Shown: piece by piece, positions 25,592 to 28,180 of the stretch
Position numbering within the stretch: the first letter of the stretch is position 1
How the letters are laid out: the number at the start of each line of letters is the position of its first letter
Assembly (NCBI GenBank): GCA_020832455.1
Contig: JAFIEQ010000014.1
Location: 1 to 46,402, forward strand
DNA length: 46,402 nucleotides
Direction: 5' to 3'
DNA from: Nitriliruptoraceae bacterium
Lineage (GTDB): Bacteria > Actinomycetota > Nitriliruptoria > Nitriliruptorales > Nitriliruptoraceae
Notes under the pieces: model-generated
Databases searched by the model: none
What the model saw: only the letters and a program-made list of their open reading frames with translations
Told to the model about the DNA's origin: nothing
Program-made: the position numbers and the translations under genes

Positions 25592-26119
25592 TCAGACCAC
25601 GCGCTGCATCCGCAACTTCGAGCCGTCGGTGATCGAGCGGGTCCCGCGCGACAGGGCGATGGTCCCGCTGCGCACCATCTCCCGGATGCCGTAGGGCTCG
25701 AGCAGGTCCACCATGGCCTCGAGCTTGGCGGGCGCACCCGCGGCCTCGATGGTCAACGCGTCGTGGTCGACGTCGACGATCTTGGCGCGGAACACCTCGG
25801 CGATCTCGATGATCTGCGACCGGGTCGCCGGATCCGCGGTGACCTTGACGAGCTGCATCTCGCGCTCGACGGACTCGTCCTGGTCGAGCTCGACGATCTT
25901 GAGCACGTGGACGAGCTTGTTGAGCTGCTTGATGATCTGCTCGAGCTGGACCGCCTCCGCCCCGACCACCACGGTCAGACGCGAGACCCGGGCGTCCTCG
26001 GTCGGCCCGACCGCGAGCGAGTGGATGTTGTAGCCGCGCCGGGCGAACATGCCGGCGATCCGGGTGAGCACACCCGGCCGGTTCTCGACCAGGACGGAGA
26101 GCGTGTGTCGGTCGCGCAT
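25592..26119 (-). CDS. ilvN: Acetolactate synthase regulatory subunit
   Basis: A 175-residue small subunit that binds valine and confers feedback inhibition on IlvB. The ACT domain starts TLSVLVENRPGVLTRIAGMFARRGYNI, followed by the IKQLNKLVHVLKIVELD helix/strand and the second conserved domain with REMQLVKVTAD and ITDGSKLRMQ. ATG at 26119 overlaps the ilvB stop as TGATG, making translation coupled. ilvC, often next in actinobacteria, is not here. Confidence 0.95.
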   Translation of the reverse strand: MRDRHTLSVLVENRPGVLTRIAGMFARRGYNIHSLAVGPTEDARVSRLTVVVGAEAVQLEQIIKQLNKLVHVLKIVELDQDESVEREMQLVKVTADPATRSQIIEIAEVFRAKIVDVDHDALTIEAAGAPAKLEAMVDLLEPYGIREMVRSGTIALSRGTRSITDGSKLRMQRVV

Positions 26120-27894
26120 CAGGCGTCCTCCCCAGCCGCGGCAGCGGCCTTGACGGCGGCCGCCCGGGCGTACCACTCCTCGGCGGTCTCCAGGATCTCG
26201 TCGTTGCTGGCGCCGGAGGGCACCATCGGGAAGACCATCTCGTCGGGGTCGACCCGGAACTCCACCAGCACGGGTTGGTCGGTGATGGCCCGCGCCTTGG
26301 TCAGCGTGGTGTCGAGCTCGTCGACCGTGGTGACCCGGAAGCCGGGGATGCCGTAGGCGTCCGCCAGCTTCATCAGGTCGGGCAGGTCCTGGGGCAGGGT
26401 GACCTGGGACAACCGGTCGTCGTAGAACAGCGACTGCCACTGGCGGACCATGCCGAGGTAGCCGTTGTTGATCACGCAGAAGGTGACCGGGATGTCGTGC
26501 TGGACCGCGGACGCGATCTCCTGGAACGTCATCTGGAAGCAGCCGTCGCCGTCGATCGCCACGACCGGCACGTCCGGCCCGACCCCGGCCTTGGCGCCGA
26601 TCGCCGCCGGCACCGCGAAGCCCATCGTCCCGAGGCCGCCGGAGTTGATCCACTGCCCGCCACGGGTGTAGGGGATGTGTTGCGCGGCCCACATCTGGTG
26701 CTGGCCGACGCCCGCGACGTAGACGGCCTCGTCGCCCCAGTGCTCGTGGATGGCGCGGATCGCGGTCTGCGGCTTGACCACCCCGGAGCTCGGCTGGTCG
26801 ACGAGCAGCGGGTGGTCGGTCTGCATCGCGGCGAGGTGGGCCCGCCACGCGGTCGTGTCGGGGATCAACGCCTCGACGGTGCCCTTCTCGCGCTTGTCGT
26901 CGAGCACGCGGAGCAGCTGCCCGAGCACGACCTTCACGTCGCCGACGATCGGAACGTCGACCGCGCGGTTCTTGCCGATCTCCGCGGGGTCCACGTCCAC
27001 GTGGATGACCTTGGCCAGCGGGGCGAACGCATCGAGCTTGCCGGTGACCCGGTCGTCGAAACGGGCTCCGAGCGTGACCAGCAGGTCCGCCTCCTGCAGC
27101 GCCTTCACCGCGGCGTAGTGGCCGTGCATGCCCGGCATGCCGATGGCCAGCTCGTGGGTGTCGGGGAAGACCCCGCGGCCCATGAGCGTGGTGACCACCG
27201 GGAGCTCGAGCTGGGTGGCGAACTCGTACAACTCGTCGCCGGCGTCGGCGCGCACGAGGCCACCACCGGCGTAGATGACCGGGCGCTCGGCCGCGGCGAT
27301 CAGGTCGAGCGCCTCGCGGACCATCTTGCCGTGACCCCGGACCGTGGGCTTGTAGCCGGGCAGGTCGACCCGATCGTCCCACGACCACTCGACGGTCGCG
27401 TTGAGCACGTCCTTGGGCAGGTCCACCAGCACCGGGCCCGGACGACCCGATCGGGCGATGTGGTACGCCTCCTTGATGGCGTCGGCCACCCGCTCGACGT
27501 GGTGGACGAGCTCGTTGTGCTTCGTGATCGGCATCGTGATGCCGGTGACATCGGCCTCCTGGAACGCGTCCGAGCCGATGGAGGTGGTCGCGACCTGCCC
27601 GGTGATGGCGAGCACGGGCACGGAGTCCATGTTGGCGTCCGCCAGACCGGTGACGAGGTTCGTGGCTGCCGGACCGGAGGTGACGATGCACACCCCGACG
27701 CGTCCGGTCGCGTGCGCGTAGCCCTCCGCCATGTGGATGGCGCCCTGCTCGTGACGGACGAGCACGTGGGTGAAGCCGGCATCGATCATCGGGTCGTACG
27801 CCGGGAGGATCGCGCCTCCGGGGTACCCGAACACGGTGTCGACGCCCAGCATCTCCAGGCTCTTCATGACGGCTTGTGCGCCGGTGATCCTCAT
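26119..27894 (-). CDS. ilvB: Acetolactate synthase catalytic subunit
   Basis: A 591-residue thiamine-diphosphate enzyme condensing pyruvate (or pyruvate with 2-oxobutyrate) for Val, Leu and Ile synthesis. VFGYPGGAILPAYD and the catalytic E49 in VRHEQGAIHMAEGYA open the N-terminal domain; the central FAD-binding domain includes LGARFDDRVTGKLDAF; the TPP motif is IDGDGCFQMTFQE ending at NNGYLGMVRQW. ATG at 27894 (MRITGAQAV) agrees with family starts and is the likely site, with AGGAG 10 bases upstream; upstream in-frame codons overlap the leader attenuator. It forms an operon with ilvN and lies behind a leader-peptide attenuator. Confidence 0.95.
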   Translation of the reverse strand: MRITGAQAVMKSLEMLGVDTVFGYPGGAILPAYDPMIDAGFTHVLVRHEQGAIHMAEGYAHATGRVGVCIVTSGPAATNLVTGLADANMDSVPVLAITGQVATTSIGSDAFQEADVTGITMPITKHNELVHHVERVADAIKEAYHIARSGRPGPVLVDLPKDVLNATVEWSWDDRVDLPGYKPTVRGHGKMVREALDLIAAAERPVIYAGGGLVRADAGDELYEFATQLELPVVTTLMGRGVFPDTHELAIGMPGMHGHYAAVKALQEADLLVTLGARFDDRVTGKLDAFAPLAKVIHVDVDPAEIGKNRAVDVPIVGDVKVVLGQLLRVLDDKREKGTVEALIPDTTAWRAHLAAMQTDHPLLVDQPSSGVVKPQTAIRAIHEHWGDEAVYVAGVGQHQMWAAQHIPYTRGGQWINSGGLGTMGFAVPAAIGAKAGVGPDVPVVAIDGDGCFQMTFQEIASAVQHDIPVTFCVINNGYLGMVRQWQSLFYDDRLSQVTLPQDLPDLMKLADAYGIPGFRVTTVDELDTTLTKARAITDQPVLVEFRVDPDEMVFPMVPSGASNDEILETAEEWYARAAAVKAAAAAGEDA

Positions 27895-27963
27895 CTCGCC
27901 CACTCTCCTGGTCCGGCCCGACCGCGGGATCCTCCGCGTGACGTCCGCGCCCCGGGAAACGAA

Positions 27964-27986
27964 GAACCTCCCGCTGGGGGAGGTTC
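27964..27986 (-). terminator. ilvBN leader attenuator (intrinsic terminator)
   Basis: On the minus strand GAACCTCCC and GGGAGGTTC form a perfect 9-bp stem with a 5-base loop (CCAGC), immediately followed by TTCGTTT, a U-rich tract. It lies 70 bases before the ilvB start and after a leader-peptide gene, the classical layout of a transcription attenuator. Confidence 0.85.
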
Positions 27987-28012
27987 GCGCGTACCCGGGG
28001 GCGGGCACGCGC
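27987..28012 (-). promoter_or_regulatory. Leader stem-loop abutting the ilv attenuator
   Basis: On the minus strand GCGCGTGCCC and GGGTACGCGC can form a 10-bp stem with one G-U pair and a 6-base loop. Its 5' arm begins at the last base of the leader-peptide stop codon and its 3' arm directly abuts the terminator. Just outside, GTTC within the last leader codons could pair with GAAC at the start of the terminator arm. A ribosome at the stop codon would cover the first arm, so it may be a pausing or antitermination element. Confidence 0.55.
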
Positions 28013-28086
28013 TACGGAACGACGACGAGGCTCGTCCACGGCACGCGCTGGTGGCGCCGTGGGGCGTTCCTCAGGTCCCGAAGCAC
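28012..28086 (-). CDS. ilvL: ilvBN leader peptide
   Basis: A 24-codon reading frame that starts at GTG 28086, with AGGAG at 28092-28096 five bases upstream, and reads MLRDLRNAPRRHQRVPWTSL then VVVP and stop. The run Leu-Val-Val-Val just before the stop is the kind of branched-chain codon cluster used to sense Leu/Val-tRNA charging. Two hairpins follow directly, the second being an intrinsic terminator, then ilvB. The features together are those of actinobacterial ilv attenuation control. Translation is not proven; the ribosome-binding site and position make it likely. Confidence 0.85.
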   Translation of the reverse strand: MLRDLRNAPRRHQRVPWTSLVVVP

Positions 28087-28180
28087 GTGCGCTCCTGGTT
28101 CGGTCGATGTTGCGCGGCGATGGTGTCCGGTCCTGGTCGCCTGGTCAAGTCGGAACCCCGCGACCCGTGAGCCTGCGCGG

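Follow-up and report, generated by a model that had tools for sequence, protein, structure and literature searches.

The region upstream of ilvB in this Nitriliruptoraceae bacterium raises the question of whether a frame of only 24 codons, followed by two adjoining hairpins, controls the acetolactate synthase genes ilvBN in response to branched-chain amino acids (BCAAs), and how hairpins arranged in this way could do so. Leader peptides and terminators upstream of ilvB were predicted in 2005 for Corynebacterium, Mycobacterium and Streptomyces (PMC1262725), and this actinobacterial type of attenuator has been experimentally shown in Corynebacterium glutamicum; for Corynebacterium, detailed dissections of the ilvBNC/ilvB-II motif and of its hairpins are available (PMC10272879, PMC11857589). 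For M. tuberculosis ilvB1, a 2026 study reported that induction depends on the LVVI codons of the leader and detected a short, terminated leader RNA (PMC13236596). Our literature search on Nitriliruptor and leader peptides returned only an unrelated soil study. We analysed a stretch of 46,402 nucleotides (hereafter, the window), one contig of a 215-contig draft genome, and compared it with the DNA upstream of ilvB from Nitriliruptoraceae (G001-G034) and one sister family; the closest relatives compared are mostly Nitriliruptoraceae metagenome-assembled genomes, the majority of them drafts.

Layout of the dxs-ilvB intergenic region

On the minus strand, the intergenic region between dxs and ilvB carries a promoter-like pair, an AGGAG motif, the leader frame, a first hairpin (P1), a second hairpin (T), the tail UUCGUUU and ilvB, in this order:

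28143-28148, minus strand: putative -35 element TTGACC (from the sequence)
28120-28125, minus strand: putative -10 element CACCAT, 17-nt spacer after TTGACC (from the sequence)
28092-28096, minus strand: leader Shine-Dalgarno (SD) motif AGGAG (sequence, relatives)
28012-28086, minus strand: leader ORF, GTG start, 24 codons, UAG stop, MLRDLRNAPRRHQRVPWTSLVVVP (sequence, relatives)
28018-28029, minus strand: control codons Leu CUC, Val GUC, Val GUC and Val GUU, the rare GUU at 28020-28018
27987-28012, minus strand: P1 hairpin, 11 bp, proposed antiterminator (consensus fold, covariation)
27964-27986, minus strand: T hairpin, 9 bp, putative intrinsic terminator (fold, terminator scan, alignment)
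27957-27963, minus strand: U-rich tail UUCGUUU (terminator scan, family comparison)
27915-27944, minus strand: block with a GTCACGCGGAGGATCCCGCGG core, downstream of T and ahead of ilvB, common to L006, L012, L017 and L018
27905-27909, minus strand: ilvB SD motif AGGAG (from the sequence)
26119-27894, minus strand: ilvB, acetolactate synthase large subunit (TIGR00118, 753.6 bits, cut-off 538)
25592-26113, minus strand: ilvN, acetolactate synthase small subunit, start approximate (TIGR00119, 192.5 bits, cut-off 57)

The first-pass annotation had described an AGGAG motif and a GTG-started frame of 24 codons ending in Leu-Val-Val-Val-Pro-stop, and both are found at 28096-28012 on the minus strand, with the GTG at 28086, the TAG at 28014-28012 and the last residues L20-V21-V22-V23-P24. 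Since the frame is open upstream into dxs, the start codon was picked by its SD motif; the GGAGCGCACGTG context around it recurs in many relatives. P1 (arms 28012-28002 and 27997-27987, loop CCCC) does begin at the G of the stop codon, as had been claimed, but its stem comprises 11 bp, one of them G-U, instead of 10. T (arms 27986-27978 and 27972-27964, loop CCAGC) starts on the base after P1, 25 nt from the leader stop codon in the window, and the 9-bp terminator hairpin with a TTCGTTT tail was recovered as described, at 27986-27964 and 27963-27957. ilvB follows downstream as stated, its ATG (27894) lying 69 nt after T. The other ilvB-like genes of the organism are at most 37% identical, and the leader is absent upstream of the two that were inspected (L002 and L003).

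Judging from the position of the putative -10 element, the leader RNA is predicted to start at ~28113. In 19 of 29 sequences, TTGAC(C/G) and, after a spacer of 17-18 nt, an xA...T hexamer stand ahead of the leader; a strict sigma-70 scan did not call the TTGACC/CACCAT pair. The block at 27915-27944 could form a small hairpin with an AGGA-containing loop. No regulon was seen for this block: elsewhere in the genome it has a single near-copy, with one mismatch, and that copy falls within a reading frame.

Conservation of the control codons and hairpins

Counting that of the window, 30 sequences extend into this region; all of them have UAG, P1 and T, and 29 contain the whole leader. UAG entered the stop search, which bears on its count of 29/29, yet it is present in every family member. 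Codons -5, -4, -3 and -2 each specify Leu, Val or Ile in 29/29 leaders (BCAA fraction 1.00), the three residues interchanging freely, while the peptide outside the control codons drifts and the final sense codon varies (Pro, Thr or others). The last seven leader codons hold 5.0 BCAAs, compared with 1.8 per seven elsewhere in the leaders, and the leader SD is present in nearly all 29. The comparison of related ilvB upstream regions that the first-pass annotation had called for thereby returned the codons and both hairpins in every close relative with an intact region.

Unguided consensus folding of the family alignment (A1) yielded exactly P1 and T, with 97% of cells paired. In the same alignment, two-sided changes affect 6 of 11 pairs in P1 and 2 of 10 pairs in T, and two-sided cells number 26, whereas shuffles gave 7.3 and slid controls no more than 8; kinship among the genomes inflates these counts relative to shuffles, and the slid controls retain that kinship. 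P1 is maintained by compensatory changes. In the window, the leader region folds at z = -2.73, and the terminator scan returned one site vs 0.1 in shuffles. The U tail averages 3.1 U per 8 nt in the family vs 1.1 expected, and several relatives have a poor tail of 2-3 U in 8. Directly after T, at 27945-27963 (minus strand) and at the equivalent place in most relatives, there is a conserved CGU and then a G-rich stretch (often CGUAGGAGGGG), which is complementary to the loop and 3' arm of P1.

A rare valine codon near the leader stop

At leader position -2, 22 of 27 Val codons are GUU, compared with 19 of the 1781 Val codons in ilvB; against the other leader Val codons, the enrichment gives a Fisher value of 1e-15, not corrected for relatedness. 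A rare Val codon (GUU in the window, GUA elsewhere) occurs within the last 8 codons in 26/29 leaders, and most lineages without GUU at -2 have GUA nearby. GUA is found in 18/18 distant leaders examined, many of which were recognised partly by their BCAA run and not by GUA. Selective charging of isoacceptors has been given as the explanation for biased codon use in attenuation leaders (PMC1183508), and GUA is also a marked regulatory codon in M. tuberculosis (PMC13236596). We also considered that GUU is kept for its pairing, GUU(C) with (G)AAC, which would extend P1 into the base of T; this was set aside, as GUU would be hidden beneath a ribosome reading the control codons. Given that most lineages lacking GUU have GUA nearby, a rare control codon fits better than such an extension.

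Leaders in more distant relatives

In an automatic search of 21 class-level genomes, 15 had a short ORF rich in BCAA codons ahead of ilvB, 13 of these being convincing and the remaining two (L052, L054) doubtful. Inspection by eye of L039, L040, L053 and L055, which the filter had missed, revealed a CUC-GUA pair, then a hairpin and a terminator. Some phylum-level genomes also possess leaders, namely MPPQITLVLID-UAG, MRTRILVLGKRVG and MRASTRALSILVVLID-UAG. In the cases that are readable, partly by eye, the P1- and T-like hairpins of class and phylum relatives mostly adjoin or overlap by 1-2 nt. Class relatives belonging to family f4 (L042, L050 and L056) have another ilvB leader layout, e.g., ...LVALVLIAPSVGGR-UAG, with a different terminator after the UAG of this example (AGCCCUCCGC...GCGAAGGGCU).

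Leaders upstream of cimA

The scan for a P1/T junction also matched sequences from four Janibacter species (L084, L103, L111 and L112), Luteipulveratus (L099) and Cellulomonas (L092), where a similar anatomy, with P1 abutting T, lies upstream of cimA, the gene for citramalate synthase of the isoleucine pathway. The codons before UAG there are Leu-Ile-Ile (as in Janibacter), Ile-Ile-Ile or Leu-Ile-Leu; as far as can be read from these leaders, the codons follow the pathway. We count the Janibacter cimA anatomy with its Leu-Ile-Ile codons in favour of the attenuator reading of ilvBN.

The genome studied here has a cimA leader of its own (L147:3210-3274, minus strand, upstream of cimA at G000:C125), whose frame ends in AIAIFIPPLP-UAG; in relatives, the Nitriliruptoraceae cimA leaders mostly end in ...IIIxxLP-UAG (alignment A2, 22 aligned relatives). 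Their stop codon lies inside a near-invariant hairpin of 16-17 bp (CCGCUCCCGUAGCCGG...CCGGGCUGCGGGAGCGG), which is overlapped by an alternative CCGGGC/GCCCGG hairpin. The stretches read contained no U-tract terminator, the two loci scanned matched no Rfam family, and our literature search found no paper on this leader. It is apparently an undescribed, Ile-rich leader peptide, and its layout looks like that of an isoleucine attenuator.

Folding around the ribosome and the proposed mechanism

Each leader was folded at equilibrium with an assumed ribosome mask from -17 to +12 around the A-site codon. P1 forms when the ribosome stalls on codons -5/-4 (P ~0.9), partly at -3 and little at -2, and its probability drops to 0 once the ribosome occupies the stop codon; P1 thus follows ribosome position in the way expected of an antiterminator. 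T forms (P ~0.9) at every ribosome position, and the two hairpins coexist in equilibrium folding; they overlap by 0 nt, have no bases in common and hence do not compete for any. A conserved upstream segment complementary to an arm of T was not found among the leaders compared. In the minimum free energy structure of the window, the SD/start region pairs with the 5' arm of P1. The first-pass annotation called the attenuator 'complete', which overstates the case: an antiterminator having bases in common with the terminator was not found. Its general reading fared better, as the leader codons and both hairpins are kept and the anatomy resembles that of studied actinobacterial ilvB attenuators (PMC13236596, PMC11857589), which argues for an attenuator.

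We postulate that the leader controls ilvBN by ribosome-mediated transcription attenuation, with charged Val- and Leu-tRNA as the signal sensed, and we put the probability of this reading at roughly 0.8. When BCAAs are plentiful, the ribosome would reach UAG and its leading edge would cover the 5' arm of P1; with P1 blocked, T would close and RNA polymerase would stop ~155 nt into the transcript. When BCAAs are scarce, the ribosome would pause on the Leu/Val codons between -5 and -3, or on the rare GUU in position -2, leaving most of P1 free, so that P1 could form before T is made and transcription would read through into ilvB. A ribosome waiting on GUU at -2 would, however, cover the outer 4-5 pairs of P1, which counts against this scheme, as the coexistence of P1 and T in folding counts against their mutual exclusion. 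The U-poor tails of several relatives and the reported lack of effect of leader-codon replacement in S. coelicolor ilvB (cited in PMC1262725) also weigh against it.

How P1 would keep T from forming is the most speculative step. The base of T lies in the RNA exit channel of the polymerase as T closes. P1 and T have no base in common and can exist side by side in free RNA, so that abutment is the probable mode of action of P1: a preformed 11-bp helix ending on the adjoining base would not give T enough space to close its last pairs. From the geometry and what is known of the exit channel, we infer that P1 excludes T by abutting it inside the polymerase, and we prefer this to pairing through a lower stem. 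As a rule for actinobacterial ilvB attenuators at large, an abutting antiterminator with zero bases in common with the terminator, exclusion confined to the exit channel and a decision made by ribosome position at or close to a rare Val codon is a tentative proposal, and one that we regard as rather doubtful.

Alternative explanations

The lower stem would make the device a switch with shared bases: the loop and 3' arm of P1 would pair with the stretch after T (ACG with CGU, CUCC with GGGG), giving a longer terminator that competes with P1. With P1 blocked, 14-20 of the 29 sequences show a lower stem (>3 expected pairs), vs 4-5 with a stall at -5/-4, long complementarity can be seen by eye in L031, L026, L025, L030 and the window (CCCCGGG/CCCGGGG), and matched arms pair slightly better than arms swapped between genera, a level that a fraction of 0.03 of permutations reach. 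These statistics are nevertheless weak beside those of P1 (0/2000 permutations). Moreover, the post-T GGGG sits 12-16 nt past T and would be transcribed after the termination decision, and in class relatives the post-T stretch is apparently missing while the U tracts are better. We therefore consider the shared-base switch unlikely. Both it and abutment predict termination with the ribosome at the stop codon and read-through on a stall.

It is still less probable that T is a constitutive partial terminator whose leader peptide no longer regulates, control being exerted through the promoter or feedback inhibition of the enzyme. The stability of T in all ribosome states would suit such an arrangement, and replacement of leader codons in S. 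coelicolor ilvB was reportedly without effect, according to the report as cited in PMC1262725. However, the BCAA codons are kept in 29/29 leaders while the remaining peptide drifts, the rare Val codon is retained against strong codon bias, compensatory changes keep P1, and in M. tuberculosis codon replacement abolishes control (PMC13236596).

Ribosome proximity could instead provide the signal: a ribosome at the stop codon would hinder T, which would then report the rate of release at UAG or the distance between translation and transcription. In E. coli, a terminator less than ~27 nt from a stop codon can be repressed (PMC4824070), and the spacer here measures 25 nt; yet under proximity control an ample amino-acid supply should give read-through, the opposite of what suits a biosynthetic operon, and the conserved BCAA run and the pairing of P1 would stay unexplained, so that we judge this reading very improbable. 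Finally, a metabolite riboswitch (e.g., for ppGpp) or a protein-binding RNA is hardly credible here, as, despite the ppGpp riboswitches ahead of ilv genes in Firmicutes that are cited in PMC10272879, a search of Rfam 15 (ppGpp riboswitch included) gave no match at the gathering threshold and only a chance-level miRNA model (E = 3.5), the structure consists of two plain hairpins without a conserved junction, and the ORF is conserved at the level of codons.

Relation to known attenuators

The attenuator reading of the ilvBN leader can be set against systems already described. Like M. tuberculosis ilvB1NC, it has a short uORF with control codons (LVVI there) and an intrinsic terminator before the ilvB gene, and there, too, a ribosome positioned at the stop codon was proposed to mask the antiterminator (PMC13236596); the two, compared by description, differ in that the M. 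tuberculosis leader has a UGA stop and a marked GUA, whereas here the stop is UAG, directly adjoining P1, and GUU is the rare codon. Corynebacterium ilvB-II likewise combines a BCAA leader peptide, a terminator and an antiterminator adjoining the terminator base (with a 3-nt GCC overlap), but most of its first hairpin falls within the uORF, with I/L/V codons in that hairpin region, and its peptide usually has 15-17 residues (PMC10272879, PMC11857589). In the leader studied here, P1 comes after the sense codons, its first base being the third of the stop codon, and its overlap with T is 0 nt; by architecture, this is not the ilvB-II motif. The leaders predicted in 2005 share the Ile/Val/Leu leader ORF and the terminator before ilvB, while Nitriliruptoria are absent from that coverage and the text has no hairpin adjoining the terminator (PMC1262725).

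As in the trp- and ilvBN-type attenuators of E. coli, leader translation would decide whether the terminator forms. In a classical attenuator, the antiterminator and the terminator have a strand in common. No bases in common were found between P1 and T; since this feature was looked for and not found, the leader is not a strict trp-type attenuator, but its mode of action is very likely that of one. T lies 25 nt after the stop codon, in agreement with the classical rule that the terminators of amino-acid attenuators lie >20 nt after the stop codon (PMC4824070). The hallmarks of the actinobacterial ilvB type are found as well, i.e., a short ORF with BCAA codons and a GC-rich hairpin with a U-rich tail, which is U-poor in some relatives.

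The ilvBN leader very probably represents a new lineage of the known actinobacterial ilvB attenuator type, with a consensus of its own. It extends a recently proven amino-acid switch to an actinobacterial class known mostly from metagenomes, supplies ~30 natural variants of the ilvB attenuator, and marks small genes that gene callers miss. Moreover, a proposed antiterminator that adjoins the terminator without common bases makes possible a simple spacer experiment on the mechanics of attenuation.
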